Assembly: GCA_017996675.1 (NCBI GenBank)
Contig: JAGOGN010000006.1
Coordinates: forward strand, 1-23,495
Length of the DNA stretch: 23,495 nt
Direction: 5' to 3'
From: Lachnospiraceae bacterium
Lineage (GTDB): Bacteria; Bacillota_A; Clostridia; Lachnospirales; Lachnospiraceae
In this document: one piece after another, positions 1,476-15,698 of the stretch
How the letters are laid out: each line of letters starts with the position of its first letter
How positions within the stretch are numbered: the stretch's first letter is position 1
Notes under the pieces: model-generated
Told to the model about the DNA's origin: nothing
Database searches by the model: none
What the model saw: the letters and a program-made list of their open reading frames with translations, nothing else
Position numbers and translations under genes: made by a program

Positions 1476-1504
1476 TTGTGAAGAGAAAGTTTCTATGCTA
1501 TAAT
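1476..1504 (+). promoter_or_regulatory. host tRNA-Leu promoter, now driving the element-borne tRNA-Leu
   Basis: -35 TTGTGA at 1476-1481, a 17-base spacer, and a perfect -10 TATAAT at 1499-1504. Transcription should start near 1511, five bases before the tRNA 5' end at 1516. Because the host tRNA is split, the transcript now runs through its 5' half and into the complete tRNA-Leu at 1580-1661, then ends at the terminator at 1674-1717. Confidence 0.8.
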
Positions 1505-1515: not shown

Positions 1516-1557
1516 GCGGGTGTGGCGGAATTGGCAGACGCGCCAGATTTAGGTTCT
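1516..1557 (+). pseudogene. 5' part of split host tRNA-Leu(UAG), left attachment site attL
   Basis: The sequence has a Leu-tRNA acceptor strand GCGGGTG (1516-1522), a D-arm region identical to that of the neighbouring tRNA, the 5' anticodon stem CCAGA (1543-1547) and the loop TTTAGGT with anticodon TAG at 1550-1552. It diverges from tRNA sequence at 1558, and no variable arm or T-arm follows. The missing 3' part is at 12058-12105: CACCCGC pairs with GCGGGTG without mismatch, and TCTGG pairs with CCAGA. This shows the two pieces were one gene cut by integration in the anticodon loop. The shared core TTTAGGTTCT is at 1548-1557. Confidence 0.9.
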
Positions 1558-1579
1558 TGTGCGTGGCTCGCAAAAATTA

Positions 1580-1661
1580 GCGGATATGGCGGAATTGGCA
1601 GACGCGATAGATTTAGGTTCTATTGTCAACAGACGTGCAGGTTCAAGTCCTGTTATCCGCA
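1580..1661 (+). tRNA. tRNA-Leu, anticodon UAG, carried by the element
   Basis: An 82-nt class II tRNA with acceptor GCGGATA (1580-1586) pairing perfectly with TATCCGC (1654-1660) and discriminator A1661; CCA is not encoded. The anticodon stem ATAGA/TCTAT is perfect, the anticodon TAG is at 1614-1616, and the long variable arm contains GTC-AACA-GAC. The T-arm GCAGG/CCTGT (one G-U pair) holds TTCAAGT. Its D-arm region and T-arm match the split host tRNA exactly, while acceptor, anticodon stem and variable arm differ by compensated changes, so it is under selection to fold. It lies between the two attachment cores, hence on the element, and appears to be expressed from the host promoter at 1476-1504. 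It should read CUA and other CUN leucine codons. Confidence 0.93.
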
Positions 1662-1673
1662 GTATTTAAGAGG

Positions 1674-1717
1674 TAAGACGAAGATCTTCTTATAGGAGAT
1701 AATCGTCTTATTTTTTT
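1674..1717 (+). terminator. intrinsic terminator after the element tRNA-Leu
   Basis: An outer stem TAAGACGA (1674-1681) / TCGTCTTA (1703-1710) encloses an inner stem ATCTTCT / AGGAGAT with loop TAT. Seven T residues follow at 1711-1717. Confidence 0.85.
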
Positions 1718-1756
1718 ACGATTTTCTTTATAATCTATGAAAAACAAAATTCTATA

Positions 1757-1788
1757 TTTTTGGTAGTTCTACCAAAAGTTCTACCAAA
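1757..1788. repeat. left-end integrase arm-type sites
   Basis: Two perfect tandem copies of AGTTCTACCAAA occupy 1765-1776 and 1777-1788. An inverted partial copy precedes them, making a 9-bp palindrome TTTTGGTAG-TT-CTACCAAAA at 1758-1777. The same 12-mer occurs twice near the right end (11895-11917). Paired direct repeats near both ends match the arm-site layout of Tn916-type integrases. Their place about 40 bases before the initiator-like gene also allows a role as binding sites for that protein. Confidence 0.6.
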
Positions 1789-1829
1789 TTCTTATCTTTT
1801 ATTTCCTCGCAGAAAGTGAGGGATAAATC

Positions 1830-2762
1830 ATGGCAGATAAAGCCATCAATTTCACAATTACACCAAATGAATTATTGGCACTAAAAGAATATGGTGGTCA
1901 GCGTCTGTCTACTGGAGACAAAATTGTTTACCAAGTTCTTTGCAGTCATTTATATGGAAAGAAATTCTGCTATCCAAGCATTAAGACTATTGCAGAGGAA
2001 GCGGGGCTTGCTGACCGTTCTGTCAGACGTTCTTTAGTTCGTTTGGAAGAAGCTGGTCTAATCAAGACATTTGAACGAGTGGAGAACGGTGTTCAGAAAA
2101 GCAATAAATACTTTGTGAAGAGTATTCTTACACAGGCTAAAACAGAAACATCAAATCTGAGTTCTAAGACTTCTCAGAACAATTTGTCCGAGCAGAAAAT
2201 GTCAGGGGTGACAAATTGTCCTACGAAGAATAAGAAAACATACAAACCTTGTATATACTCTACTAATTCTACTTCAGAGAAAAAGGTGGAATCTGTAGAG
2301 CATACAAACAAGGATGTTCGTTTTGAGATTATTGAATCTGACAAGAGTTATCAAATGACCATTGATCAGGATATCTATGCCTTGGTAAAGAAATATTACT
2401 TTACGATTCTTCGAACAAAGAAAGACGAATATATGATTAATGGATTGAAGGTTAGTAAAGCACAGGTGACAGAGTGTTTGGAATCATTAACCTACAAAGA
2501 GATTCTATCTGTTGTTCAAAATGTAATGACCATGACAAGACGTAAGGGCTATGTGATCAAATCAGAGTTTGGATATTTCCTAAAGCTGTTTTGGAATATT
2601 AAGCATCCGTCTGAAAAAATGGTTTCAATTGTCAAAGAGGATGCGAAGCTTGGCAGAACCAAATTAGAAACACCAAGCACAAAGAATTCATTCAATAATT
2701 TCCATCAGCGAAATTATGACTTTGATGAATTAGAGAAGATGCTGCTTGGTGTGTCAGTTTAG
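1830..2762 (+). CDS. helix-turn-helix protein, putative replication initiator or element regulator
   Basis: A 310-residue soluble protein. Residues about 28-80 form a winged helix-turn-helix of the HTH_36 type (FCYPSIKTIAEEAGLADRSV followed by a RRSLVRLEEAGLI recognition and wing region), which is common in replication initiators and DNA-binding proteins of Firmicute plasmids and integrative elements. A low-complexity Ser/Thr/Asn/Lys linker follows (about 105-165), then a second folded, charged domain (about 170-310) that I do not recognise. The ribosome binding site is GTGAGGG before ATG 1830. The gene lies next to the attL-proximal repeats and upstream of the structured region and relaxase. 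This order suggests a role in replication of the excised circle or in control of transfer. The function is inferred from the fold and position. Confidence 0.55.
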   Translation: MADKAINFTITPNELLALKEYGGQRLSTGDKIVYQVLCSHLYGKKFCYPSIKTIAEEAGLADRSVRRSLVRLEEAGLIKTFERVENGVQKSNKYFVKSILTQAKTETSNLSSKTSQNNLSEQKMSGVTNCPTKNKKTYKPCIYSTNSTSEKKVESVEHTNKDVRFEIIESDKSYQMTIDQDIYALVKKYYFTILRTKKDEYMINGLKVSKAQVTECLESLTYKEILSVVQNVMTMTRRKGYVIKSEFGYFLKLFWNIKHPSEKMVSIVKEDAKLGRTKLETPSTKNSFNNFHQRNYDFDELEKMLLGVSV

Positions 2763-2765
2763 TTG

Positions 2766-2845
2766 CCTGTCATTTCACATCACATACTTAAGAGCATAGG
2801 CGATATGTGATGTGGGATGGCAGGATACAAGGGAAGGCATCGCCT
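2766..2845 (+). ncRNA. candidate structured RNA: long hairpin with possible pseudoknot
   Basis: Four bases after the initiator-like stop codon, positions 2766-2786 pair with 2804-2824 in an uninterrupted 21-bp stem: 18 Watson-Crick pairs and three T-G pairs (2770/2820, 2774/2816, 2775/2815). The wobbles favour an RNA made from the + strand. The loop (2787-2803) contains AGGCGA at 2798-2803, which is complementary to TCGCCT at 2840-2845, so an H-type pseudoknot is possible. No U-tract follows, so this is not a simple terminator. It may be a cis-acting RNA, part of the transfer origin, or an mRNA stabiliser. Confidence 0.45.
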
Positions 2846-2886
2846 GGGAGTGTAACTTCCATTGAGATTAGGTAAGCCATCGGCAA

Positions 2887-2934
2887 AGGGCAACGCCCTA
2901 TTGAGATGCCTGACGCTTGCGTCACCCGTAGGGC
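2887..2934 (+). other. nested alternative stems in the initiator-relaxase intergenic region
   Basis: AGGGC (2887-2891) can pair with GCCCT (2895-2899), or instead GCCCTA (2895-2900) can pair with TAGGGC (2929-2934) and enclose a perfect hairpin TGACGC-TT-GCGTCA (2911-2924). The two states exclude each other. The stretch is visibly richer in G+C than the flanking genes. No function can be assigned from sequence alone. Confidence 0.35.
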
Positions 2935-2935
2935 T

Positions 2936-2974
2936 GTACTTATCTGGAACAGATAAGTACGAGGGCACATACTT
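2936..2974. other. candidate MobV-type origin of transfer (oriT)
   Basis: A perfect 11-bp inverted repeat GTACTTATCTG (2936-2946) / CAGATAAGTAC (2950-2960) has a GAA loop. Its right arm overlaps AAGTA (2955-2959), which can pair alternatively with TACTT (2970-2974) around the loop CGAGGGCACA. In pMV158-type oriTs a shared middle arm likewise forms one of two exclusive hairpins, one carrying the nick site in its loop. The site lies 70 bases upstream of the MobV relaxase gene, the usual place. The exact nick position cannot be read from the sequence. Confidence 0.55.
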
Positions 2975-3004
2975 TTGATTATGTTGCAGGTGGAGGTTAA
3001 AAGT

Positions 3005-3055
3005 GTGAACAGGAAAATGTTACAGAAAAGGAGGCAAGAAAAATATGGGATATAA
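3005..3055 (+). CDS. possible 16-residue leader peptide overlapping the relaxase start
   Basis: A GTG codon at 3005 follows GGAGG at 2992-2996 with an 8-base gap and opens a 16-residue, basic frame that ends at TAA 3053-3055. This frame spans the relaxase ribosome binding site and overlaps its start codon at 3045. Translation could expose or couple the relaxase start. Frames this short arise by chance, so the call is weak. Confidence 0.25.
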   Translation: MNRKMLQKRRQEKYGI

Positions 3056-4142
3056 TATCGGAATGCCATGCATGAAATTGAACAATGCTGGCAATACAAG
3101 TAAACATTGTGGTTCGTTTGGTGGAGTTGCAATGGAAGCGTTAGAAGAACGAAAAGGACGGGATCCAGATATCAACCCTGAATTATCATATTTAAATCAG
3201 TCCTTTGGATTTACAACTGCTAAGCAGCTATTAGCATATTCCGACGAACATGTGGTCAACTTGACCAGAAGTTTGCATGAGGAAGGAAAACGAGGTGTCA
3301 GACGAGATGCTGTGCGAATGATTGTGACTATCTTTAAGCCTCCTGGCGGTCTTATGGACGCATTAGAGGAAGAAGAACAAAAAGAACTACTCTCCGACTG
3401 TTTAGAGGAATTTACAGCCATTGTAGGAGCCGACCGCATAAAGGCGGCTTCCATTCATTTTGATGAACTCAGTCCACATATTCATGTGTTCTGGGAACCA
3501 ATGACAGAGGACGGTAGGCTCTGTGCGAAAGAAGTGCTAAATCTAAAGATGTATCAGACCATCAACAAAGAGATGCCAAAGCGACTACGAGAACGTGGAT
3601 GGGATATGATTGATGATTGCAATTGTTATGATGCAGAAAAAGAAGCACAGTTAAGCGCTAAAGAGCGTGAACAGCATTATAAGGAACGAGCTGCTAAGAA
3701 TGGGCGAAGCTCTGCAAGATTTAAAGCAGAAGCATCTAGAGAACTTGTAGATTTGCAGGAACAGATGGATGAACTCTCTAAGAATAAGATGAAGATCTTG
3801 GATGAACCAGAAGTGAAGGAAGCCTTTGGTCAACTTGTTCATAAAGGTATCTTGGCAAAAACAAAGGTATTCTTATTAGAACATGTTTTGCCAAAAATCA
3901 ATTCTCTAATTATGTATGATGTAATTGATGCCACATTGGAGTTTTTAGATAAAAAGGGGTTGCTCAAAGATAAGCACGAAGCGGTTAATGAATTATATGG
4001 TGCTGGAAAAGATGGTACTCATATTATTTCGGAAGAAGTACAGGAACGGTTAAAAGACGAAATTGAACATGATATGGTATGTGGTATGATGGAAGAACCT
4101 GAATTCGGGGTTCAGCGAGGACGACATGGACGGTTAAGATAA
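3045..4142 (+). CDS. MobV/Pre-family relaxase (plasmid mobilization protein)
   Basis: A 365-residue relaxase that should nick the element's oriT and stay bound to the 5' end of the transferred strand. The MobV metal-binding motif is clear at residues 137-152, IHFDELSPHIHVFWEP, with H138, D140-E141, H145 and H147. The N-terminal region (EERKGRDPDINPELSYLN) matches the family's conserved first motif, and residues about 205-260 form a charged coiled coil, usual for the C-terminal half of this family. The start ATG 3045 follows AAAGGAGG at about 3027-3034. It lies just downstream of the oriT candidate. No coupling protein or secretion genes accompany it, so transfer would need a helper. Confidence 0.88.
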   Translation: MGYNIGMPCMKLNNAGNTSKHCGSFGGVAMEALEERKGRDPDINPELSYLNQSFGFTTAKQLLAYSDEHVVNLTRSLHEEGKRGVRRDAVRMIVTIFKPPGGLMDALEEEEQKELLSDCLEEFTAIVGADRIKAASIHFDELSPHIHVFWEPMTEDGRLCAKEVLNLKMYQTINKEMPKRLRERGWDMIDDCNCYDAEKEAQLSAKEREQHYKERAAKNGRSSARFKAEASRELVDLQEQMDELSKNKMKILDEPEVKEAFGQLVHKGILAKTKVFLLEHVLPKINSLIMYDVIDATLEFLDKKGLLKDKHEAVNELYGAGKDGTHIISEEVQERLKDEIEHDMVCGMMEEPEFGVQRGRHGRLR

Positions 4143-4215
4143 AATATGATACGATAGATTTACTGTTAAACTATCTTTGGATATTTTACATTTATCAAGG
4201 ATTGGAAGGTACTAT

Positions 4216-5610
4216 ATGAAGAATTTAAGTAACAAACATAAAACTACGCTTCTATATGGAGTGCTCTTTGGATATGTTTTATCTTTTGTCTTTGAAGGAC
4301 GAGTATATTTTCAAGCAACAAAATTATTATCATATGATACATCGAATCAGATGCTTATGGCTATGTTTTGTCACATGATAGGTCTATTAGCTACAGGAAT
4401 ATTAGTTAAGAGACGAAGAAGCACAAAACAAGTTATGTTTTTTACTATTCTAGCATGTATTATTTTAACTCCATTCTTTTTGTTCTCTAATATGCTTGTC
4501 GGGTATCTGATTATTGCTTTTACTTCTTTTTTGTCTGGAATGGCAGTGGCTTGTTGGGCTGATTATTATAAAGAATGCGTTCAACCAGAAGCACGTATGA
4601 CAACCATTGCAAATTCGCTTATCATTGCGAACCTTCTAATGATACTTGCAGGGTTAATAGCGACCTATCTTTCAATATATGGCAGTTTTATTTTGATCTC
4701 ATTATATTTAGTAGTCGCTTTATGTACATTAGTATCTTTTGATAATGAATATAGTTGTGCTGACATTTATGAATTACAGAAACTTAGCCACTCACAAATC
4801 CATACATTATGTTTGTTTTTTGCATTTGTTGTGGTTGCGACAATTGATTCAGGGCTTATGTATGGTGTGATTAATTTGAAATATGAAGTGTTTTCATATT
4901 TGACTAGTTGGTTTTGGGCTATACCATATATCATTGCCATACTTATTATGAAATCTTCATATGAAAAGAAAAAAGAATCATATTTTCTCTATATTGCTTT
5001 TTGCATGATTGGAATGGGTTTCATATTTAATCTGCTATTACCGTTTTCAGCAATTAGTTATATCGTCATAGATATATTCTTACTGGGTGCAGCAGGAATC
5101 ATAGATTTGTTCTGGGCTTCAAAAGTGGGTGAAAGCTTTGAATATTTAAAAAATCCGGTAAGAGTATTAAGCGTAGGATGGGCGGCGAATGTATTTGGCG
5201 TTTTTATTGGAGGTATTCTTAGTAAAAAAGTAATTTCTTCAAAGTTCGATGATAAAGATTTAGTTATTATGGCATTAATTGTAATTGCTATATCACTTAT
5301 CTTATTACCTGAGATGCTGAAACGCTTGTATCTATTGCTTGAGTCAACTAAATGCATTGATTCATATAAAGAGCAATCAGAAGTTCAAAAAAAGGAATTT
5401 GCGTGTTGTATTCCAAATTATGAGAATCTCACCAATCGTGAAAAAGAAATTTTACAACAAATTCTGCTAGGCAAAACTAATAAAGATATTAGCTTAGAAT
5501 TATCAATTTCTGAAAATACAGTAAAAACTCATGTTAGAAATATATTATCAAAATATGGTGTGACTAATCGGGCTCAACTCATAAGCATCATCTGGCAAAA
5601 AGAACATTGA
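4216..5610 (+). CDS. membrane-embedded LuxR-family transcription regulator (about 12 TM segments)
   Basis: A 464-residue protein. The first about 365 residues form roughly twelve hydrophobic segments in an MFS-like arrangement, and the C-terminus is a LuxR/GerE helix-turn-helix (NLTNREKEILQQILLGKTNK, then DISLELSISENTVKTHVRNI). One-component regulators with a 12-TM sensor part fused to a LuxR domain are frequent in gut Actinobacteria such as Eggerthellaceae; their ligands are mostly unknown. I chose ATG 4216 with GGAAGG just before it rather than the TTG at 4177, which lacks a ribosome binding site. The gene heads the cargo module, and a dyad placed at about -42 of the next transcription unit is its likely target. 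The host tree and the ligand are unknown. Confidence 0.75.
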   Translation: MKNLSNKHKTTLLYGVLFGYVLSFVFEGRVYFQATKLLSYDTSNQMLMAMFCHMIGLLATGILVKRRRSTKQVMFFTILACIILTPFFLFSNMLVGYLIIAFTSFLSGMAVACWADYYKECVQPEARMTTIANSLIIANLLMILAGLIATYLSIYGSFILISLYLVVALCTLVSFDNEYSCADIYELQKLSHSQIHTLCLFFAFVVVATIDSGLMYGVINLKYEVFSYLTSWFWAIPYIIAILIMKSSYEKKKESYFLYIAFCMIGMGFIFNLLLPFSAISYIVIDIFLLGAAGIIDLFWASKVGESFEYLKNPVRVLSVGWAANVFGVFIGGILSKKVISSKFDDKDLVIMALIVIAISLILLPEMLKRLYLLLESTKCIDSYKEQSEVQKKEFACCIPNYENLTNREKEILQQILLGKTNKDISLELSISENTVKTHVRNILSKYGVTNRAQLISIIWQKEH

Positions 5611-5620
5611 TTGACATAGA

Positions 5621-5665
5621 ATCATCCTTAGGGATGATGTAATTAAACCTCCATTTTTCTATACT
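5621..5665 (+). promoter_or_regulatory. activator-type promoter of the surface-protein operon, probable LuxR operator
   Basis: A perfect 7-bp dyad ATCATCC-TTAG-GGATGAT (5621-5638) lies upstream of a good -10 TATACT (5660-5665) that has no recognisable -35. A start near 5672 puts the dyad centre at about -42, the usual place for LuxR/NarL-type activators of this promoter class. The regulator gene lies immediately upstream. Two further small dyads, CTATAC-TTA-GTATAG (5659-5673) and TTTATC-ACTA-GATAAA (5677-5692), surround the start. A weaker alternative promoter uses TTGACA at 5611-5616 with GATGAT at 5633-5638. Confidence 0.5.
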
Positions 5666-5724
5666 TAGTATAGGTCTTTATCACTAGATAAAAGAAATAT
5701 ACAAGAAGAAAAGGAGGTCTTTTT

Positions 5725-6555
5725 ATGCACAAAAAGTATTTTATTAAATTTACTTTGTTACTGGGGCTACTAGTGATAATCAGCGGATGTGGAAATCGTA
5801 AAAGTGTGGATGAACCAAATACTGAACAAAGCACTACGCAAGAAAGCGAAACTATTAGTGAAGAAACTACTACCGAAGATATTCCAACAGATTATGCGTA
5901 TACTACTACAGTTTCTATAAATCCTCAGATAAAGTTATATTTAGATATTGAAAACTATATTTTAGGTGCTGAGTATTTGAACGACGATGCAAAAGATGCA
6001 TATGCTGATTTAAAATTAAAAGGTTTAATACTGGAAGACGGTATGGAACAAATAGTAACAGCTGCGATTGAAAAACAGTATTTAAAAGAGGGAATGGACA
6101 TATCAATTACAATTGATGATGTGACAAATCAAGATGTAGAAAAGGATAATCTACTATTTGGAATCAAAGATGATATAAGTCAATTATTAGATGATTCAAA
6201 TGTAACTGCGACTATTGTTGTAAATAGTGATTCACAAGACAACGAACAAGCAGAAATACAAAATCAAAGCTCTGAACAAGAATCTACCATGTGCTCTCGT
6301 TGCGGAGGCTCTGGAGAATGTGTGGGATGCCATGGTGGAAAGGATAAATGCCCTGCATGCAACGGTACTGGATACGAAACATGTCCTATGTGTGATGAAA
6401 ATGGATTAGATCATGGTCAAACATGTGCAACATGCGGTGGAACACATCACTACTTATGCACTCACTGTAAAGGAGTTGGAACAGCCATTGATTGCCCTGA
6501 ATGCGGAGGAACTTTTAAGTGTCAAGCTTGTGGCGGTACTGGAATACAAAAATAA
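5725..6555 (+). CDS. surface lipoprotein with RsgI-like middle domain and DnaJ-like cysteine-rich tail
   Basis: A 276-residue protein. A lipoprotein signal (hydrophobic residues about 8-19, lipobox ISGC with lipidated C22) is followed by a Ser/Thr/Glu-rich spacer (about 25-58). Residues about 60-130 (VSINPQIKLYLDIENYILGA and onward) resemble the extracytoplasmic middle domain of RsgI-type anti-sigma factors. The tail (about 190-276) contains eight CxxC motifs, several as CxxCxGxG, the zinc-binding pattern of DnaJ. A DnaJ-like zinc region outside the membrane is unusual; it might bind metal, respond to redox state, or bind unfolded protein. The ribosome binding site is AAGGAGG before ATG 5725. 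It is the first gene of an operon with the next two. Confidence 0.65.
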   Translation: MHKKYFIKFTLLLGLLVIISGCGNRKSVDEPNTEQSTTQESETISEETTTEDIPTDYAYTTTVSINPQIKLYLDIENYILGAEYLNDDAKDAYADLKLKGLILEDGMEQIVTAAIEKQYLKEGMDISITIDDVTNQDVEKDNLLFGIKDDISQLLDDSNVTATIVVNSDSQDNEQAEIQNQSSEQESTMCSRCGGSGECVGCHGGKDKCPACNGTGYETCPMCDENGLDHGQTCATCGGTHHYLCTHCKGVGTAIDCPECGGTFKCQACGGTGIQK

Positions 6556-6586
6556 AACACGTTAAACAGAAAGAGAGGATACAAAA

Positions 6587-8140
6587 ATGGTAAGAAAAAG
6601 AAAATGTATCATAGGAATATTATTAGTGTTGTGCATGGTTATTTTACAAGTTCCATTTGCCGTATCTGCACAAGGAACTAGATCAATTACAGTTACAAAC
6701 AATGAATCACATGGATCAATTTCATATTCCACGAATGGAACTGGTGATGATGCAAATGGAACAATCACAATGGGACAGTCATTTACGATTCCCAATGATG
6801 CAACATCTATTGATATTGCAATTAATCCAGAAGAAGGATATCGTATAGATTCCGAAAGTGGCATTGAAATAGGCGGTTCAAAAACGAAAGTAAATAGTGA
6901 GAATCATATTATTTATAATCAGCTCGATGAATTGGATCAGACTACCTCAATTAATGTTCTTATTCAGTTTCAATCTGATAATGGTGGAGAACAAGGTGGA
7001 GATCAGCCAAATCCTGGACCTGGAGATGAATCTCAAAGTCCAATTTCTCTTTACCTTGTTTGGAACGGCGGAACACAAATGATTGACGTGAACACCATAG
7101 AAAATCCGGAAAATATATTTACAGTTCCAAGCGATTGCGATTTTGACTCAATGAATGTATATGCAATTAGCGAAGGACAGGTAGCAGGAACAAATGATTT
7201 ATGCCTAAATAAAACAAATCAAGCGAATGATACAACACAAACAGTCCGAAGCTGGCATGTTACAGATTACTGGCAACCACCAATATTAGATGATGATGAT
7301 CCAATGAATGATCACCCAATTACAAATTATAATGTTAATTGCTCCATCACTATAGTAAAACAGTCATCTAGACCTGTTTCAATAGATTTCCCAAATGGAG
7401 AGAAAAAGGCTGATGGATGGGAGTTTGGTAATGTTCAATTAACTGATTTAGCCAGTGCAACTACTAAGGAAAAAGCAGTTATCCTTGAAACATATTATGA
7501 AAACTCAACAATTGCAATTGTTGATCCTTTTGAAAATGGATTTCAATCAATTGAAACCGTGGACATACCTCAAAATGCCGTAACTATACAGGGAGCAGGC
7601 ACGAACTCAGATCCGTTTTCAGCAACTATAAATTCTGATTTTTATGATACGGTTTTATTTAAGGTAACCTGTAACAATGGTGATGTAAGATATCTTAAAA
7701 TAGTTCGAAAAGGGATTGAAATACATCTATACACAAATAATTCTGGAGACACGGGGTATTTATCAGATACACTTCATGGTACACAACCAGGATGCCCGAT
7801 TGATTGGTCGGATGGTACTACAACGAAAATAATAGCAACCTATTATTATGATATGTCAAAAACTAGTACTGACTTTGATATGATAGCTACAATTAAACAC
7901 CAAGATGGAACAATAGAAATGAAGGTAATAGCTGGAATACAAGGGGAAGAGACATTATGCGTAGGAAATGGAACAAAAGGGGGCGATTACTTGATTTGGT
8001 CAGGTAATCCAGCAAATAAACCTTTATCAGTATCTGTAACTGCGGTTGCAACTGGCTCATTTTCTGGAAAAGTAACGCAATTTACTGGAGCTAGTTTTGG
8101 ATCAGGCGCAGGTGTTTCGTGGAAAGCAGACAATGAATAG
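6587..8140 (+). CDS. large secreted protein of unknown function
   Basis: A 517-residue protein with a clear signal peptide (basic start, hydrophobic residues about 8-24, cleavage near VSA-QG at about 28). After it comes a beta-rich region (about 32-120) reminiscent of divergent InlB-type repeats, an acidic Gly/Pro/Asn linker (about 130-150), and a long beta-rich region without a family I recognise. No membrane anchor or sorting signal is present at the C-terminus, so it is probably released or held by partners. The ribosome binding site is AGAGAGGA. The following gene's ribosome binding site overlaps this gene's stop codon, so the two are translationally coupled and likely made in fixed ratio. 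A binding or adhesion role is possible but unproven. Confidence 0.5.
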   Translation: MVRKRKCIIGILLVLCMVILQVPFAVSAQGTRSITVTNNESHGSISYSTNGTGDDANGTITMGQSFTIPNDATSIDIAINPEEGYRIDSESGIEIGGSKTKVNSENHIIYNQLDELDQTTSINVLIQFQSDNGGEQGGDQPNPGPGDESQSPISLYLVWNGGTQMIDVNTIENPENIFTVPSDCDFDSMNVYAISEGQVAGTNDLCLNKTNQANDTTQTVRSWHVTDYWQPPILDDDDPMNDHPITNYNVNCSITIVKQSSRPVSIDFPNGEKKADGWEFGNVQLTDLASATTKEKAVILETYYENSTIAIVDPFENGFQSIETVDIPQNAVTIQGAGTNSDPFSATINSDFYDTVLFKVTCNNGDVRYLKIVRKGIEIHLYTNNSGDTGYLSDTLHGTQPGCPIDWSDGTTTKIIATYYYDMSKTSTDFDMIATIKHQDGTIEMKVIAGIQGEETLCVGNGTKGGDYLIWSGNPANKPLSVSVTAVATGSFSGKVTQFTGASFGSGAGVSWKADNE

Positions 8141-8151
8141 GAGGTTCCTTG

Positions 8152-8703
8152 ATGAATAAGAATTATAAGATAAGATTTTTTTTGACTATGTTATTAATGA
8201 TATGCACGCTTGTAATCCCTGTTCAAAGTGTGATGGCTGCTAATGTTCTTTCTGTAAGTGGAAAATTAAAGGACAATATGTTGACAGTATCAGGGACAAC
8301 AGATGCATCAGTTATTGCAGCTGTGATTTGTGTTTATAATAGTGACGAATCTGAATTATTAGCGATGGAAAGTGTTTCTGTTTCCAATGGAACATATAGT
8401 AATGAATTTTCAAACAGAACGTTTTCAGGAGATACTTATATCGTTAAAGTAGCTGATTATGATGGTGGAACATATAACACTATAACTGTTAAAAAAGAAA
8501 ATGATGCAGCAAATATAGATAACCCACAGAACACAACAGATGTTCCGCAAAAAACTACTGTTGATACAAGTACTGGGACTAAATCACCCGAGACTGGCGA
8601 TACATCATATGCTATTGATTGGTGTATATTATTGCTGCTTAGCGGTTCCTTATTGATTATTATAGGCTCATTAAATAATAAGAAAATAACAAAAGTTTTA
8701 TAG
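8152..8703 (+). CDS. cell-wall-anchored surface protein with variant sorting signal
   Basis: A 183-residue protein with a signal peptide (about residues 8-29, ending VMAAN), one small beta-sandwich-like domain (about 30-115), a Thr/Asn/Pro-rich stalk, and a C-terminal sorting signal: SPETGD, a hydrophobic stretch, and a basic tail (NNKKITKVL). The SPETG box is a variant of LPxTG, so it is probably attached to the wall by a host sortase; none is encoded here. The start is ATG 8152 rather than TTG 8149, with AGGAGG at 8139-8144 overlapping the previous stop codon. It likely anchors or partners the large secreted protein encoded just upstream. Confidence 0.65.
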   Translation: MNKNYKIRFFLTMLLMICTLVIPVQSVMAANVLSVSGKLKDNMLTVSGTTDASVIAAVICVYNSDESELLAMESVSVSNGTYSNEFSNRTFSGDTYIVKVADYDGGTYNTITVKKENDAANIDNPQNTTDVPQKTTVDTSTGTKSPETGDTSYAIDWCILLLLSGSLLIIIGSLNNKKITKVL

Positions 8704-8707
8704 TAAA

Positions 8708-8748
8708 AATGCCATCAAAGAAATGAAACATGCTTCTTTGGTGGCATT
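8708..8748. terminator. bidirectional terminator between cargo operon and nuclease gene
   Basis: A 15-bp stem (8708-8722 with 8734-8748, one G-U pair) and an 11-base loop lie between convergent genes. On the minus strand the stem is followed by TTTTTA, a good terminator for the nuclease gene. On the plus strand the T-tract is weaker (CATTTATT). Confidence 0.75.
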
Positions 8749-8751
8749 CAT

Positions 8752-9741
8752 TTATTCTTCTATTCCAGGAATATTAACTAATTCCTGTAGTTTCTTTTGG
8801 AGCACTGCTTTATCAGGCAGTTTTAACTGATATTCTGATACTAGCATCGGTGACATTGTTCTGCTCATGGAGTATTCAACAACTTCGTCATTTTTTGAAG
8901 CGCATAGGAGCAAGCCAACACTTGGATTTTCATCGGACTTTTTCACTTGACGATCAAGCGCTTCAAGATAGAAATCTAATTGAGATACATATCCAGGTTT
9001 GAATTTCCCGACTTTTAATTCAATGGCAACAAGACATTTTAAATCTCTATGATAAAATACAAGATCTGAATAAAAATCATCACCACCAACTTGTAAACGA
9101 TATTCTTCCCCGACAAAAGTAAAGTCTCTTCCCAATTCTAATATGAATTGTTTCATATTCTCTACTAACGCTTTTCGCAAATCATTTTCATGAAATTTAT
9201 CTGGAAGATCCAAAAACTCAATGACATACGAATCTAAAAATGGAATTTGTGATTTGTTTGATATTGGTTCAGGCAAAAGTTTTTCTTTAGATAGCATATA
9301 TCGTTCATAATATCCACTATCGATTTGGCGTTGCAATTCTCTTGCAGAATAGGATTCTTTGACGCAAAGTGTAATATAAAAATGTCTCTCTTCAATTGTT
9401 TTCGATTTGGATAGAATGGCAAGATGATTACTCCAACTAATTTGTGTCAACACTGTTGTCACAAATTCATCATCCTTATATATTTCATAAAACTGTTTCA
9501 TTCTATATAAACCTCTACGATTAAATCCTTTGATTCCGGGAAATTGATTTTGAATATATTCAGACATTGAATCTATATAGGAATCTCCAAAAGAAGCAGC
9601 TTTTGATTCGTTAGAGAGCAATTCACCTACTGCCCAATACATTTTTATCATTTCTTCATTTACTTTTTTGAGCGCATTACTTTTCGATGTTTCAATAATA
9701 TCTGTAACCCTTGAAAAAGATAATTTCATTTCATCAGACAT
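8752..9741 (-). CDS. PD-(D/E)XK nuclease domain protein, DUF1016/YhcG family
   Basis: A 329-residue protein. The N-terminal helical DUF1016 region (about 10-150) contains the conserved block VLTQISWSNHLAIL (97-110). The C-terminal PD-(D/E)XK-like core shows D226 (SDLVFYH) and E241-x-K243 (AIELKVGKF), so the catalytic residues appear intact. The family is a putative nuclease often found on mobile and defence-associated loci; its substrate is not established to my knowledge. It lies 54 bases downstream of the XRE repressor gene, in the same direction, so they are probably co-transcribed. A 29-bp sequence inside the gene (codons about 93-102) is repeated inverted in its own leader. It could be a defence gene or an element-stability gene. 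Confidence 0.8.
   Translation of the reverse strand: MSDEMKLSFSRVTDIIETSKSNALKKVNEEMIKMYWAVGELLSNESKAASFGDSYIDSMSEYIQNQFPGIKGFNRRGLYRMKQFYEIYKDDEFVTTVLTQISWSNHLAILSKSKTIEERHFYITLCVKESYSARELQRQIDSGYYERYMLSKEKLLPEPISNKSQIPFLDSYVIEFLDLPDKFHENDLRKALVENMKQFILELGRDFTFVGEEYRLQVGGDDFYSDLVFYHRDLKCLVAIELKVGKFKPGYVSQLDFYLEALDRQVKKSDENPSVGLLLCASKNDEVVEYSMSRTMSPMLVSEYQLKLPDKAVLQKKLQELVNIPGIEE
9438..9466 (-). repeat. 29-bp inverted repeat, copy inside nuclease gene
   Basis: This 29-bp sequence is the exact reverse complement of 9760-9788. Each copy is itself nearly palindromic (TTTGTG-CAACA type arms, one central mismatch pair). This copy encodes the conserved FVTTVLTQI block of the nuclease, so it is probably the source copy. 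Confidence 0.9.
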
Positions 9742-9759
9742 AATAAAGGTTCCTTTCTG

Positions 9760-9788
9760 ATTTGTGACAACAGTGTTGACACAAATTA
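9760..9788 (+). repeat. 29-bp inverted repeat, copy in XRE-nuclease intergenic leader
   Basis: An exact inverted copy of 9438-9466. It fills most of the 54-base gap between the XRE stop codon and the nuclease start. The two copies bracket the nuclease start codon and its first about 92 codons (293 bases between them). In one transcript they could pair over 29 bp. Confidence 0.9.
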
Positions 9789-9795
9789 TATTTAC

Positions 9796-10275
9796 TTAAT
9801 TTTCTTGAACAGTTCCGATTGTTTTAATTTCTTCTTCTCTCATAGGATCCGTATACATGTTCATAATCATTGCTAGTTGTGTAAAGAGTTGTTTGCGTCC
9901 TTCTTCATTCAAAGAATAGAATCCTGTAAGCAATTGATCAATCTTATCTAAGTCATCTTTTCCAATCATTTGCATTAGTGGTGTCATGCGATATTTGATA
10001 TAACGCGAAACTCTTCCGTCATCAAGCCATCCGTCAAGTCCAGATGGCAAGCTTGGCATTACTTCCCCTTCATCATATGGATTTTGTTTACAAAATTCAG
10101 ATATATCTACATTTAGCACATTTGCAAAGCGCAATGCAAAATCAAATCGTATAGAGGAATCTCTTTTAATAATTGAATAAATTGTTTGTGAGCTGACTTC
10201 CGTTCTTCTTGAAAATTCCATCACGGACATACCACGTTCATCAAGTACCTCTTTTAATCTTTTCCCATATCCCAT
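9796..10275 (-). CDS. XRE-family repressor, probable control protein of excision
   Basis: A 159-residue protein with an N-terminal XRE helix-turn-helix (about residues 5-58; LKEVLDERGMSVMEFSRRTE, then VSSQTIYSIIK) and a helical C-terminal part (about 75-155) for oligomerisation or signal input. The start is ATG 10275 with GGAGG at 10284-10288; a TTG three bases earlier is less likely. It is divergent from xis-int, and the 176-base gap holds five TGCATAA-type boxes. This is the arrangement of repressors that keep an element integrated, such as ImmR of ICEBs1. The usual partner protease is absent; the downstream gene is a nuclease instead. Repressor function is inferred from layout. Confidence 0.75.
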   Translation of the reverse strand: MGYGKRLKEVLDERGMSVMEFSRRTEVSSQTIYSIIKRDSSIRFDFALRFANVLNVDISEFCKQNPYDEGEVMPSLPSGLDGWLDDGRVSRYIKYRMTPLMQMIGKDDLDKIDQLLTGFYSLNEEGRKQLFTQLAMIMNMYTDPMREEEIKTIGTVQEN

Positions 10276-10301
10276 CAATCAATCCTCCTATTATTGTTCT
10301 C

Positions 10302-10435
10302 TTTTATGCAATAAATTATATCATATGCATAAAAATTATGCAATTAGATAATAAATTATTCTATTGCATAAAAAATACTTGACATATTATTCATAAAGAT
10401 ATATTATTACACTATAATTATTCAAATGCATAAAA
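10302..10435. promoter_or_regulatory. cluster of five TGCATAA-type operator boxes between repressor and xis
   Basis: Related boxes lie at 10302-10313 (TTTTATGCAATA), 10324-10335 (TATGCATAAAAA), 10336-10345 (TTATGCAATT), 10362-10373 (TATTGCATAAAA, the reverse complement of the first in 11 of 12 bases or better) and 10425-10435 (AATGCATAAAA). The fourth lies just upstream of the xis -35 and the fifth just before the xis ribosome binding site. They are the likely binding sites of the XRE protein on both divergent promoters. Confidence 0.6.
10379..10407 (+). promoter_or_regulatory. promoter of the xis-int operon
   Basis: -35 TTGACA at 10379-10384, a 17-base spacer and -10 TATTAT at 10402-10407. 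A second -10-like TATAAT is at 10413-10418. Operator boxes flank it on both sides. Confidence 0.7.
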
Positions 10436-10451
10436 CAAGGAGGTGAAGTCA

Positions 10452-10640
10452 ATGTTAAATGAATATCCAGATGTAATGAGTGTGGAACAGGTTGCAGAAG
10501 CATTAAATGTTTGCAGACCATGTGTTTACAATCTCATCAAAGATTCAGAGATACTTGCCAGACGAATTGGTAAGGTATACAGAATCCCAAAACAGAGTGT
10601 TATTACATTTATTTGTGGTGACGAGAAGAAAGGAGCATAA
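10452..10640 (+). CDS. xis: excisionase (HTH_17 type DNA-binding protein)
   Basis: A 62-residue basic protein with a MerR-like helix-turn-helix (VMSVEQVAEALNVCRPCVYN) and a wing ending in RRIGKVYRIPKQSVITFI, the usual form of small excisionases beside Tn916/ICE-type integrases. It should bend the attachment-site DNA and direct the integrase to excision. ATG 10452 fits AAGGAGG at 10437-10443 (8-base gap); a GTG at 10443 overlaps the ribosome binding site and is rejected. The integrase gene follows after 2 bases, so both are made from one message under control of the divergent XRE repressor. Confidence 0.8.
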   Translation: MLNEYPDVMSVEQVAEALNVCRPCVYNLIKDSEILARRIGKVYRIPKQSVITFICGDEKKGA

Positions 10641-10642
10641 GA

Positions 10643-11881
10643 TTGGGACTAACAGAAAAGAAAGGTATCTACTATGCAGTCACAAAGTATAAGGGATCAG
10701 ATGGTAAATGGAAAACAAAATTTATTTCCACAAAGATTAAGGTAAGTGATCATCGCAAAAAGGAAGCAAAGGAAATCGCAGCTAAGCTGATTGCAGATTT
10801 CAATTCTTCTTTATGCGGTGACCACAGCCAGCTTACCATCAGTGAGTATTCGGAGATATGGTTTGAACATATGAAACCAATCATTCGATCTAACACGATG
10901 GATTCATACAAACGTGATATGAATCGGCATGTAATACCACTATTAGGGAAAAAGAAAATAAACCAGTTGCATCAGAAGGATGTAGAAAATTTTATTCATC
11001 AGGAAATTCGTATCTGCGATGAACGTGCAAAGGCACAGGCGATTATCAGGGCTGATGCAGAAGCAAAAGGGGAAATACCGAAATTTGCAGCACAGTTCTC
11101 CCCATTCTACAAATCCATTAAGAAGCATGTAAATGTATTAAGCGAGATGCTTAATTATGCAGTATCTGTGGATGATGTGCAGTATAATGTTGCAGATAAA
11201 ATTGATAAGTCCATTTTCCGCAAATTGGCGGGGGATAAATTCAGAGGTTCAGCTTATACAATGGAAGAAACCGCAGAATTGCAGAGACTTGTTATGGGTA
11301 CGGAGATTGAAGTTCCAGTTATGTTGGCTCTTATGCTTGCATTAAGACGATCAGAAGTGATTGGCCTTAGATGGTCAGCAATTGATTTTGAGGATAATAT
11401 TGTTCATATCAATCACACATGCATCATTGAGGATAATAAACCAAAGTATGTTGATTTGACAAAGAATAGTTCCTCAAGAACAGATATGTATTTAGCGGAG
11501 AATGTAAAGGCGTATCTTCTATCAGTGAGAATGCATCAGGAAGAGGATAAGAAGTTATTTGGAAAAGGATATAAGGACAGTGATTATATCTGTAGATATG
11601 CAGATGGTACCTTAATGAAACCGAATTACGTATCACATAACTTTAAACGTTTCTTAGAGAGAAATCATCTTAGGGCAATTCGATTCCATGACTTACGCCA
11701 TACAGCAGGTAGTACAATTTTAAATCAGACTGGGGATTTAAAGCTTACTTCGGAATATTTAAGACATTCATCAATTCAGGTAACTGGGGATATCTACTCG
11801 CACGTAGATATGGGAAGAAAGAAAGCAGCTGCAGATATCTTAGCAGCCAATATTGTAACTAATAATGAGAGCAACTTTTAG
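10643..11881 (+). CDS. int: tyrosine integrase of the tRNA-Leu element
   Basis: A 412-residue phage/ICE-type integrase. Residues about 1-55 form an arm-binding domain (GIYYAVTKYKGSDGKWKTKF), about 65-175 a core-binding domain with an insertion near 128-150, and about 205-405 the catalytic domain. The catalytic residues are visible: R235 (ALRRSEVIGL), H349 and R352 (HDLRH), H375 (LRHSS) and Y385 (DIYSH). The start is TTG 10643 with AAAGGAG 7 bases before it; no ATG is near. The gene ends 176 bases before the right attachment core, and its stop codon touches the arm-type repeats. It should recombine the element at the anticodon loop of tRNA-Leu(UAG). Confidence 0.93.
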   Translation: MGLTEKKGIYYAVTKYKGSDGKWKTKFISTKIKVSDHRKKEAKEIAAKLIADFNSSLCGDHSQLTISEYSEIWFEHMKPIIRSNTMDSYKRDMNRHVIPLLGKKKINQLHQKDVENFIHQEIRICDERAKAQAIIRADAEAKGEIPKFAAQFSPFYKSIKKHVNVLSEMLNYAVSVDDVQYNVADKIDKSIFRKLAGDKFRGSAYTMEETAELQRLVMGTEIEVPVMLALMLALRRSEVIGLRWSAIDFEDNIVHINHTCIIEDNKPKYVDLTKNSSSRTDMYLAENVKAYLLSVRMHQEEDKKLFGKGYKDSDYICRYADGTLMKPNYVSHNFKRFLERNHLRAIRFHDLRHTAGSTILNQTGDLKLTSEYLRHSSIQVTGDIYSHVDMGRKKAAADILAANIVTNNESNF

Positions 11882-11917
11882 TAGAACTGGAAAAAGTTCT
11901 ACCAAAGTTCTACCAAA
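11881..11917. repeat. right-end integrase arm-type sites
   Basis: Two AGTTCTACCAAA copies at 11895-11906 and 11906-11917 (11-base period) are preceded by an inverted GTAGAACT (11881-11888), forming an 8-bp inverted repeat with the first copy. The 12-mer is identical to the pair at the left end. A shorter match, TTCTACCA, lies at 12041-12048, ten bases from the right core. Confidence 0.6.
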
Positions 11918-12057
11918 AGTGCTCCAAGAACAATCCGAGAAAATAAAAGGAAAGACAATTAAATATAGAAAGAAATGCTCATACAGCCTGTAAATACAAG
12001 GGGTTAGATGAGATTAAAATATCATAGACTACAAGAGGTTTTCTACCATGCATAATC
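11918..12057. other. right terminal region of the element, no gene seen
   Basis: These 140 bases lie between the arm-type repeats and the right core. They hold one partial arm repeat (12041-12048) and no open frame or clear terminator. They should form the left part of attP in the excised circle, directly joined there to the bases before the element's tRNA-Leu. Confidence 0.6.
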
Positions 12058-12105
12058 TTTAGGTTCTGGTGGGAGACCGTGCAGGTTCAAGTCCTGTCAC
12101 CCGCA
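12058..12105 (+). pseudogene. 3' part of split host tRNA-Leu(UAG), right attachment site attR
   Basis: It begins with the core TTTAGGTTCT (12058-12067) and continues with the rest of the 3' anticodon stem (TCTGG), a short variable arm (GGG-AGA-CC), the T-arm GCAGG/CCTGT with TTCAAGT, the acceptor strand CACCCGC (12098-12104) and discriminator A12105. All stems match the 5' part at 1516-1557 and not the element's tRNA at 1580. It has no promoter of its own facing it and cannot make a tRNA while the element is integrated. Confidence 0.9.
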
Positions 12106-12137
12106 TAATTTTTTAATCTAGGATATATAAAGAAAAT

Positions 12138-12180
12138 AGAGCTGAAGCCTTTTAAATCAAAGGGTTTCGGCTCTGTTTTT
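12138..12180 (+). terminator. terminator of the original host tRNA-Leu unit
   Basis: An imperfect stem of about 14 bp (AGAGCTGAAGCC... with ...GGTTTCGGCTCT) and a run of T at 12176-12181 lie 32 bases after the tRNA 3' end. Confidence 0.8.
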
Positions 12181-12229
12181 TATTTGTTCATGATTTTGAA
12201 ATAAATTTTAACAAACTGTGAATTTTCTG

Positions 12230-12258
12230 TTGACAAATAAAGACGGAGCAACTATAAT
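12230..12258 (+). promoter_or_regulatory. full-consensus promoter without a downstream ORF
   Basis: TTGACA at 12230-12235, a 17-base spacer and TATAAT at 12253-12258 match the sigma-A consensus completely. It points right, toward a terminator about 75 bases on and a convergent gene, with no reading frame between. Confidence 0.8.
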
Positions 12259-12264
12259 AACCTT

Positions 12265-12362
12265 AGTAGATAACTTAACTATCTCATTTGAACTTGCTAA
12301 TTTACGTTTTTCCCTTTATATATCCTAGAGATAAGAAATCCGATTTCGGATTTCTTATTTTT
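12265..12362 (+). ncRNA. candidate small RNA of about 95-100 nt
   Basis: Transcription from the consensus promoter should begin near 12265. It should end at a strong terminator: a 12-bp perfect stem ATAAGAAATCCG (12331-12342) / CGGATTTCTTAT (12347-12358), loop ATTT, then a T run to 12362. The interval has no ATG and no plausible ribosome binding site. TATCTC near 12281 could pair with AGATA just upstream or with GAGATA near 12328, so alternative folds exist. I do not recognise a known RNA family. The end points are estimates. Confidence 0.5.
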
Positions 12363-12370
12363 GTTGTAGT

Positions 12371-12415
12371 AAAAAAACAACCAGCGTAGCAGTGTATAAC
12401 TGTCGCTGGTTGTTT
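12371..12415 (-). terminator. terminator of the GntR-ABC operon
   Basis: A perfect 12-bp stem AAACAACCAGCG (12375-12386) / CGCTGGTTGTTT (12404-12415) has an inner CAGT/ACTG stem in its loop. On the minus strand it is followed by a run of seven T (12371-12377), 9 bases after the permease stop codon. Confidence 0.85.
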
Positions 12416-12423
12416 GCGTGATA

Positions 12424-14343
12424 CTATCTTTCAGGTTGTACAAAAGTTAATTTCGAAACCTGAACTCCATTTGCATCCAACAGTTCTAATAACTTTGTAC
12501 ACTGGTCATTGATATGTAAATCTACATTGAGGTTTACCGTGTAGTTATCCGAGAATGTAGAGGTATTGATGGAGTATTCATTAAAGTAGCTGTTTTGATC
12601 CTGAAAACTGGTTTGATCATTTGGGGCATAAGAATAATTTAGTGAAATAACAGTGGAATAGTAATGGGACTTTTCTTCGTCTGTTAACTGGGTTGGAAAG
12701 GCTTGAATGTGCCCAACTTTTATTTCATCTAGATAAGCCTCAAGTATTGGTAAGATTAAATCCGCATCCAGCGTCTGATTCAGAGAAGGCGGTACAGCCC
12801 CGGCTGGTTTCTCACCTGTTTTTTCGTCATAGTATTCTGGTGTATAGACAGATAAATTTAGCGGACTGAGATGTTCTTTCTTGTCCATTCCTAGCAAGTT
12901 GATAATGCGGTCAAAGTCGTTAAATAATTCGCTCGTAAGAGAACTGATTGAATTTGAATCGGCAATATCTGCTTTCGATACGCGGAAAGGATAAACACGT
13001 TTTAGTTCATGGCCATTTTTTAAGTGATAAGTGAGGGATATGGTTTGAATATCATCCGTTGCTATATCAACCGGTGAATTTTTCTTGGCCAAAAGTTGCT
13101 TTTGAAGTTCTCGAGTAAATTTTATTTCTTTTTGCGAGGTGCACTGCGTTTTATAAAAATAATCGAGATCCACATATTTAATGCTGTCCGTTGTAGGGAT
13201 TTTGGATTCTAAATTTAAAATATCATAACGAATACAACAGAGTGCAATGATTACAAAAGCGGTGAAGAAGAAAGATTCCATGACTTTTTTCTTGTTAAAG
13301 ATGCGGAATCTTTTTTTGATAATCATTTCTACAGCATAAAAACAGATAAATGAAAAGGCAAAAACAAAGATAAACACTACTCGAAAGTGAGATTCATTTA
13401 AGTAGACATCAGAGTTAAAAAAGAAACTGGTGAAAAACTCTGTTAGTAATCCAATCATGCAAAGAGATGCCAACCATAAAAAGAATGGTCTCATCATCTT
13501 ATAGGATAGCACGTCACCTACACATTCGATTTTACGGTACTTATATAACAGGAAAGCAACAATGATAATGAGAATAGTTGCAATTGCATAGGGAATATAA
13601 AAACCAGTGGAAGAAACTTCAATTTCCATCGAATGAAGTGGCAAATCAATTGGACTGAACGTGTGATAACCTGTTAAATGAAACAAAGGAGAAAGCAACG
13701 AATCTTTTCCGGAATAAGCGCTCTCCTGGGTGGTTACACCATAAAGCAGCAAATGTCCAAGTCCCAATACGAGAAATTTCACTCCAACATACAAAAGGTT
13801 GAATATAATATAAAGTGCTGCTGGCCAAAAGAAATTACCCGAAAACATACAAAACATGACCATTGTGCTATAAAGCAGAATCGTGACAAAAAAGCAGGAA
13901 AGAATCCACGGATGAAGATTGTCAGTATAGGCTGGATTGATTCCCAAAGTTACCAGAGTAGTCAGCAGGTAATTAATGAGCTGCGGAACGAGAAGATAAG
14001 TTAAACCGCTTACATAGTTTGTTAGAAACAAGCCTTCTCTTGCGATTGGAAGTGCATGAATGGCATGTGCAGAACGAGCATTAAACTGGTAAGAAAAAAC
14101 AGCCATCGCACTGAGTACAATAAAAATGGATAAAATAATTGGTGAAGCACAAATATTCATAACGGTAGAAAGTCCGTATAAAAAATCACGCTTATCTACA
14201 AATGAATGATTGGAATTACTCATAAACAATGAGAAAGGGCCAGTGAAAACAAGTAAAAAAAGGTATCCCGTCCAGATCGGCCAATGTCTTCCGATGTTAT
14301 TTTTAAATATAGTGAAATTAAAGTAAGATTTCTTTGATGCCAT
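12424..14343 (-). CDS. ABC transporter permease, YtrB-operon type
   Basis: A 639-residue membrane protein. The N-terminal about 380 residues hold some seven to eight transmembrane segments, and the C-terminal about 250 residues form a soluble, largely beta domain outside or at the membrane. It is the last gene of the GntR-ATPase-permease operon and presumably pairs with that ATPase. Systems of this layout are linked in Bacilli to cell-envelope stress and antimicrobial peptides; the substrate here is unknown. The start is ATG 14343 with GGGAGGTG 7 bases upstream, rather than the ATG at 14364, which lies upstream of that site. It overlaps the ATPase gene by 26 bases. Confidence 0.75.
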   Translation of the reverse strand: MASKKSYFNFTIFKNNIGRHWPIWTGYLFLLVFTGPFSLFMSNSNHSFVDKRDFLYGLSTVMNICASPIILSIFIVLSAMAVFSYQFNARSAHAIHALPIAREGLFLTNYVSGLTYLLVPQLINYLLTTLVTLGINPAYTDNLHPWILSCFFVTILLYSTMVMFCMFSGNFFWPAALYIIFNLLYVGVKFLVLGLGHLLLYGVTTQESAYSGKDSLLSPLFHLTGYHTFSPIDLPLHSMEIEVSSTGFYIPYAIATILIIIVAFLLYKYRKIECVGDVLSYKMMRPFFLWLASLCMIGLLTEFFTSFFFNSDVYLNESHFRVVFIFVFAFSFICFYAVEMIIKKRFRIFNKKKVMESFFFTAFVIIALCCIRYDILNLESKIPTTDSIKYVDLDYFYKTQCTSQKEIKFTRELQKQLLAKKNSPVDIATDDIQTISLTYHLKNGHELKRVYPFRVSKADIADSNSISSLTSELFNDFDRIINLLGMDKKEHLSPLNLSVYTPEYYDEKTGEKPAGAVPPSLNQTLDADLILPILEAYLDEIKVGHIQAFPTQLTDEEKSHYYSTVISLNYSYAPNDQTSFQDQNSYFNEYSINTSTFSDNYTVNLNVDLHINDQCTKLLELLDANGVQVSKLTFVQPER

Positions 14344-15217: not shown

Positions 15218-15587
15218 TGGAAGTGCCTCCTTTTAGTTGAATTTGTATAAATTGAAGGATCTCGTCTGCACTCATTCCCAAATATAGTAATTCTTTTATA
15301 ATAGGGGTGATTTGCTGGAGTAGTTCTGTTAAGCGAGGGTTTTTAGTGGCGTCTGCAGGAGAAGCAAAGGTGCCTTTCCCAACAACAGAATATACATATC
15401 CTTCGGTTTCTAAATCTTTGTAGGCCCGCTGTATGGTATTTGGATTAATGGACAAAGAGGTTGCCATTTCTCTTACAGAGGGTAATTTTTCGTCAGGTTC
15501 GATGATGTTTTGGACGATTCTGGTTCGAATCGCATCCTTAAGCTGTTCGTAAATGGGTCTGGTATCCCGATAGTTTATCGCAATCAT
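15210..15587 (-). CDS. GntR-family repressor, YtrA subfamily
   Basis: A 125-residue regulator: an N-terminal winged helix (about 10-75; PIYEQLKDAIRTRIVQNIIE, then LPSVREMATSLSINPNTIQR) and a short helical dimerisation tail, the compact form typical of YtrA rather than larger GntR proteins. It is the first gene of the operon. A perfect 11-bp inverted repeat overlaps its promoter's -10, so it probably represses its own operon and is released by envelope stress or an effector. ATG 15587 follows AAAGGAG. Confidence 0.88.
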   Translation of the reverse strand: MIAINYRDTRPIYEQLKDAIRTRIVQNIIEPDEKLPSVREMATSLSINPNTIQRAYKDLETEGYVYSVVGKGTFASPADATKNPRLTELLQQITPIIKELLYLGMSADEILQFIQIQLKGGTSID

Positions 15588-15691: not shown

Positions 15692-15698
15692 CCATTAT

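Follow-up and report, generated by a model that had tools for sequence, protein, structure and literature searches.

A mobilizable element that splits a host tRNA-Leu(UAG) gene appears to bring a whole foreign tRNA-Leu(UAG) under the broken gene's promoter

We analysed a 23,495-base stretch of DNA from a Lachnospiraceae bacterium (hereafter the window), in which a host tRNA-Leu(UAG) gene is split in its anticodon loop by a mobilizable element of ~10.5 kb. The 5′ half of the broken gene (1516-1557, forward strand) lies to the left of the element's left junction, attL, and the 3′ half (12068-12105, forward strand) lies directly to the right of the core at the right junction, attR. Joining the two host flanks yields an 80-nt tRNA-Leu(UAG) with a perfect anticodon stem (CCAGA/TCTGG). 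Each junction carries the same 10-base core, TTTAGGTTCT (attL, 1548-1557; attR, 12058-12067; both forward), made up of the anticodon loop and three stem letters, and the element set off by these cores spans 1558-12067, or 10,510 bases. A terminator-like site with 20 pairs (12133-12179, forward) follows the 3′ half and is the putative terminator of the host tRNA gene.

The left part of the element encodes a replication- or regulator-like protein with an HTH_36 domain (1830-2762, forward; Pfam PF13730), a relaxase of the Mob_Pre or MobV-like type (3045-4142, forward; Pfam PF01076, with an NCBIfam MobV score of 65.4 bits, below the cut-off of 100) and a protein in which a LuxR-type C-terminal domain (Pfam PF00196) follows a long hydrophobic region (4177-5610). 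Towards the right end lie an Xre-type repressor (9796-10278, reverse; Pfam HTH_26 and HTH_3), an excisionase-like protein (10443-10640, forward; TIGR01764, 40.4 bits against a cut-off of 28.8) and a tyrosine integrase (10643-11881, forward; Pfam PF00589 and PF14659). The element genes also include a YhcG/DUF1016 nuclease, and two element proteins without a Pfam match look secreted. The element thus has an integrase and an excisionase of its own together with a relaxase, and because Pfam finds no secretion-system or conjugation family in its ten main proteins, the set on which this class assignment is judged, we call it a putative integrative mobilizable element.

Several further features of the element deserve mention in their own right. 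Its cargo region (5725-8703) encodes an RsgI_M-domain protein whose end is rich in cysteine, a protein of 517 aa without a Pfam match and a protein in which the motif SPETGD stands ahead of a hydrophobic tail, an arrangement that resembles a cell-wall anchor. A perfect 29-base inverted repeat (9438-9466 and 9760-9788), each arm of which is itself nearly palindromic, has one arm in the YhcG/DUF1016 gene and the other just before that gene; the two arms might act as paired operators or bound a segment that inverts, and the second copy of the element described below aligns across it with unchanged orientation. A long near-perfect hairpin (2765-2825) between the HTH_36 and relaxase genes marks a region that might be the place for oriT, and an Rfam microRNA match at the same position (31.9 bits against a gathering score of 90) is most likely due to chance.

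Just inside attL, on the same strand as the broken gene, stands a complete tRNA-Leu (1580-1661, forward) with the anticodon TAG at 1614-1616. It is the single tRNA that ARAGORN reports in the window, it scores 56.1 bits with Rfam model RF00005 (gathering score 29; E = 7.8e-10), and it holds a third copy of the core at 1612-1621. A spacer of 22 bases (1558-1579, forward), the start of which forms a dyad with an arm on the attR side, separates it from the left core, and both programs thereby bear out an earlier note on this DNA, which had placed an intact tRNA-Leu of the same anticodon 22 bases inside that core. Letter comparison likewise confirmed the note's list of differences between the host and carried genes: the 5′ halves are equal at 38 of 42 positions, and of the four that differ, two are in the acceptor (positions 5 and 7) and two are the outer positions of the anticodon stem, with the pairing partner changed each time. 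The D- and T-arm letters are equal in the two genes and the variable arm differs. This succession of a half and a whole gene occurs once in the window and in none of 100 shuffles.

The promoter of the broken host gene is predicted at 1476-1504 (forward; TTGTGA, 17 bp, TATAAT), 11 bases ahead of the broken tRNA, with 10 of 12 consensus letters and a TG before the second hexamer. As the sole promoter-like site within 1400-1800, it agrees with the earlier claim that a host promoter reads towards the carried tRNA and that the 22-base spacer has none; the scan expects 1.2 such sites by chance, so the call rests on position and quality and not on the count. Behind the carried tRNA lies a terminator-like hairpin with a T run at 1711-1717 (1668-1717, forward; RNAfold gives −22.8 kcal/mol for 1662-1722), and the terminator claimed there is in this sense present, though the hairpin is missing from the consensus terminator scan. 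A transcript from the host promoter would comprise the dead host 5′ half, the 22 bases, the intact tRNA and the terminator, and RNase P could release the carried tRNA from it. When the element's ends are joined as in the circle, the best promoter-like match in the 240 bases ahead of the carried tRNA has 8 of 12 letters, a bare hint that the gene may be silent in the circular form.

A near-identical copy of the element is carried by another species, in different flanks, on contig JAKPAB010000352.1 of a metagenome assembly that is 95% complete (G001). The two copies show 11 differences in 10,529 aligned bases; four of these (1579, 12068, 12098 and 12100) fall at the ends, in what is a comparison of host DNA, and seven are inside. 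The site in G001 has a single complete tRNA-Leu(UAG), identical in letters to the carried tRNA and directly behind a promoter-like site, and a 3′ half belonging to the G001 host itself stands at the far end; no extra 5′ half was found at the G001 attL. The half-plus-whole arrangement is therefore seen in one of the two copies with both ends readable. The earlier note had suggested looking for a tRNA-Leu beside attL in related elements, and G001 indeed has one, but without an extra 5′ half.

At 82 of 82 positions, the carried tRNA has the letters of the native tRNA-Leu(UAG) gene in two other genomes of the family to which G001 belongs (G177 and G392), and the native gene of a third genome (G282) is one base off. 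In ~1.5 kb on each side of these three genes we found no likeness to the window. The full identity to native genes elsewhere indicates a foreign native gene and not a drifted host copy, and since the carried tRNA has the host 5′ half on one side and the rest of the element on the other, it came with the integrating circle. The proposal that integration swaps the host tRNA for the element's accordingly stands in part: the data support that the circle brought a foreign whole tRNA-Leu(UAG) and set it behind the broken gene's promoter, and the lack of an extra half in G001 speaks against the proposal. Its description of the carried tRNA as a diverged, maintained gene gives way to that of a foreign native one, and maintenance cannot be shown because the two element copies are too alike. 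A likeness of the spacer's start to other tRNA-Leu stems, for which we estimate a chance of about 1/64, was discarded.

Searches of wider sets of genomes returned few relatives of the element, which is rare among species genomes. The integrase was found at two loci in the genome contigs, one on the G001 contig (L010) and the other, L011, in a different genome (G716), and at E <= 1e-70 in one of 391 class genomes, namely G001. Six further loci with an alignment were 21-32% identical, and the integrase protein cluster represents 49 member sequences and one contig. A single query sequence gave no integrase match in viral contigs, the matches in plasmids and phages all fell under 60%, and neither the spacer string nor the attR string occurred in viral contigs. 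The genome with L011 gave five DNA matches, none of them an attL, and these searches did not find a third copy of the element with both ends. Three phage records (H21-H23) matched tRNA-Leu, two of them as Leu(CAG) and one as Leu(UAG).

Two patterns for the half-plus-whole tandem, both of which recover the arrangement in the window, gave no match in viral contigs, in 397 family genomes or, with looser spacing, in 387 order genomes (the two samples overlap), which indicates mainly that the tandem is not native to those hosts. Tandem tRNAs in element-free relatives, which the earlier note had named as evidence against its reading, were thus absent from both samples, with no close relative of the window host seen among them. 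No relative of that host with an empty site was found among the genomes searched. The right flank (12110-20000) had no match in 392 order genomes at E <= 1e-100, a strict limit with two candidates per genome scored in the rows shown, and this search ran without a positive control and so shows little. Compared with G001 and a genome of the same genus (G304), the flank at 12100-23495 matches G001 only (69% over 519 bases and 73% over 99 bases).

Both ends of the element carry two exact copies of an arm-type repeat, GTTCTACCAAA, at 1766-1788 on the left (starts 1766 and 1778) and at 11896-11917 on the right (starts 11896 and 11907), all on the forward strand, and the window has no other exact copies. 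In Lambda/Tn916-like integrase systems, arm-type repeats lie on both sides of the core, besides the core-type sites. The window has GTTCTACCAAA twice per end, and these repeats are candidate arm sites of the integrase. The right-end repeats lie 152 and 141 bases from the core, and L011, whose integrase is 70% identical, has TTCTAACAA twice (4023-4042) at the same distances of 152 and 141 bases from its core (4183), which an orphan 3′ half of a tRNA-Leu adjoins. Between L011 and the window, the arm letters have changed and the geometry is kept.

The left repeats lie 148 and 160 bases from the carried tRNA's own loop and 212 and 224 bases from the window core. This near symmetry of the arm repeats round the carried tRNA's loop, and not round the window core, points to an ancestral attP that held only a half gene. 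The dyad between the arms next to the crossover gives a different picture: the two arms that flank the loop mirror each other at 8 of 12 positions in an attP with the whole tRNA and at 3 of 12 in a half-type attP. A score of 8 of 12 is reached by 0.31% of shuffled arms and by 105 of 23,483 window stretches; when only dyad positions 4 to 12 are scored, the arms are equalled by 3 of the 377 stretches beginning with TCT. The attB itself scores 7 of 12 (window attL, 8 of 12) and the two loop-adjacent positions of the whole-tRNA attP are asymmetric, so the dyad is modest evidence.

When the integrase cuts in the anticodon loop, the recombined gene consists of the host's 5′ half and the 3′ half supplied by the element, and its acceptor and anticodon stems both have to pair as before. 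A whole gene avoids the mismatch that such a joint can bring. If the foreign 3′ half were set on the 5′ half of the window host, two of the five anticodon-stem pairs would be lost by our computation. Joined to 30 distinct native tRNA-Leu(UAG) genes, the element's 3′ half would disrupt the anticodon stem of 19 and the acceptor stem of 3, with at least one of the stems affected in 20, which fits the idea that the whole gene was selected for stem compatibility. None of the same 30 native genes has a non-standard pair in its anticodon stem. This set is biased, consisting mostly of best matches to the carried gene and including one phage-type record and two genomes with two loci each; a further gene with a different loop letter and a standard stem, ATAGA/TCTAT (L028), lies outside it, and with that gene the counts would be 0/31 for non-standard pairs and 19/31 for broken anticodon stems.

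The anticodon stem at the G001 attL starts with an A, and the half at attR ends in a G, which calls for C or T. As no non-standard stem occurs among the 30 genes, the A is not what one expects from G001's own gene. The tRNA-Leu(UAG) of G304, tried as a stand-in for the original gene of G001, was too different to serve. Two histories bear on this site. In one, the whole tRNA came in with the circle, and recombination in G001 between the 5′ halves of 42 bases then removed 64 bp; in the other, the circle brought in no more than a 3′ half, which is the usual case. The second history also fits, provided that a single base has changed in one of the two halves; elsewhere the element has seven changed sites. 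The A fits the 64-bp deletion better than the restoration of the gene from a half, because the deletion yields an A, and we consider the first history the probable one.

We therefore favour, with a probability of roughly 0.7, the explanation that a foreign whole tRNA was imported and placed under the host promoter and that the site in G001 was later trimmed by a 64-bp deletion. The two halves and the core show that the tyrosine integrase recombined the circle with the host tRNA-Leu(UAG) gene in its anticodon loop, and the position of the carried gene and its full identity to native genes elsewhere show that the entering circle bore a foreign complete tRNA-Leu(UAG) 22 bases from the crossover. 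Integration splits the host gene and sets the carried gene under the host promoter. In G001 the near-identical 5′ halves probably recombined, and the loss of 64 bp left a single clean gene. Of the two forms of attP, the half-type is probably the older, and the whole-gene form probably arose from it by capture of a host 5′ half with its leader. This form probably also preceded both integrations seen here, which is the weakest step of the argument.

Other accounts start from the same anatomy. The strongest of them, which we nevertheless regard as doubtful, is that the element, like most islands that target tRNA genes, normally carries a 3′ half only and that the whole gene is an accident of sloppy excision, cut 64 bp too far upstream in a host with a tRNA like that of G177 and so taking the 5′ half and leader along. 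The near-symmetric spacing of the arm repeats round the carried tRNA's loop (148/160 against 152/141), the right-arm geometry that L011 keeps to the base and the half-type anatomy of G001 all speak for it. Against these stand the A in the G001 attL stem in place of the expected C or T, which needs an extra change where no native gene of the 30 is mismatched, and the 3 of 12 dyad positions of a half-type attP. The carried tRNA might also be mere baggage, its host having further tRNA-Leu(UAG) genes that make the break and the replacement irrelevant. We hold this to be unlikely, given that the six tRNA hits of at least 80 nt that ARAGORN finds in the G001 assembly include one Leu(UAG) (the others are Leu(UAA), two Leu(CAA), Ser and Tyr) and that the anticodon-arm pattern, which misses variants, never occurs twice in 16 single-contig family genomes (once in seven, not at all in nine).

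To two further accounts we give very little weight. A merger of two strains' forms of the element during assembly could have produced the extra 64 bp, and the pattern of core, spacer and 5′ half is indeed found in 0 of 68 fetched loci; a random chimera would not be expected to create a dyad between the spacer and the attR arm, and every letter of the carried gene is intact. Slightly less probable still is a pair of tandem tRNA-Leu(UAG) genes that pre-existed in the host, the first of which the element hit. Tandem tRNA genes are common in general, but the second gene should then lie to the right of attR with the 3′ half, whereas it lies inside attL, and the family and order samples described above hold no such tandem.

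The import of a foreign whole tRNA agrees in principle with what is described for conjugative elements of the Pasteurellaceae, so the replacement of a broken tRNA as such is already known. In the available portions of two reports (PMC6861422, PMC6028734), ICEs of the ICEMh1/ICEPmu1 type insert in the anticodon loop of a tRNA-Leu gene, as in the window, and have an intact replacement tRNA-Leu beside broken copies; the same portion of PMC6861422 places an extra disrupted copy just upstream of the full-length tRNA, again as here, and its authors also discuss completion of the tRNA by joining at attL. The window has the same intact tRNA-Leu inside one end and broken copies at both, but its ten main proteins show no transfer family beyond the relaxase. 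As these partial sources have it, the Pasteurellaceae elements are conjugative (ICEMh1-PM22 has 77,786 bp), with a tRNA-Leu for UUG and a core of 10-13 bp, whereas ours is a 10.5-kb mobilizable element of a member of the Bacillota with a tRNA-Leu(UAG), and the likeness is one of anatomy. It differs further in that the carried tRNA is matched to native genes of other genomes and that a second host has a clean gene.

Islands that restore their target from fragments form a second point of comparison. According to the part of the Islander report available (PMC4383910), 2083 of 3919 islands are anticodon-centred and the gene is restored by fragments, and these islands share with the window a tyrosine integrase, a crossover in the anticodon loop and a displaced 3′ tRNA fragment at the far end. 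The core repeat of the window does lie inside the tRNA and the fragment at the far end is displaced; the window element, in contrast to such islands, carries a whole tRNA with its own 5′ half and leaves the host 5′ half unused, and its target is not restored by a joined fragment, although the anatomy of G001 fits that description. ICEApl1 and ICEHin1056, which also target tRNA-Leu, carry 65 bases of the tRNA gene and alter the gene that results by introducing letters from the tRNA of a different species, as told in the accessible part of PMC4908127. For pTN3-like archaeal integrases, the available text of PMC8371274 describes an attachment that uses the 5′ half of the tRNA, which bears on the question of the promoter; there, unlike in the window, joining restores an uninterrupted gene. 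We found no description of a whole tRNA carried by a Bacillota element in a literature search with most subscription literature outside its scope. As far as we have seen, the new points are that the carried gene is fully identical to native genes of other genomes, that the site in a second host is clean, that the geometry of the arms is conserved, and that stem compatibility could be a reason for carrying a whole gene.

Elements that insert in tRNA genes are usually described as repairing their target with a fragment. The element in the window supplies a foreign gene in full, and the site is seen in two states in two hosts whose elements are nearly the same. We tentatively entertain, though with well under even odds, the further idea that a promoterless whole tRNA is a host-range device, switched on only by a host tRNA promoter and carried complete because the exchange of a half breaks the stem in many related hosts. 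Under this idea, an essential host tRNA would be swapped for a foreign one across species, and the 64-bp deletion, by exchanging the spacer arm of attL for other sequence, might lock the element into its site. If the import of a foreign whole tRNA is true, mobile elements would substitute foreign tRNAs for those of their hosts with few traces left behind, a point relevant to the movement of tRNA genes between species and to the broad host ranges possible for integrases that act in the anticodon loop. The expectation would then be that tRNA genes beside the ends of such elements match the genes of other lineages.
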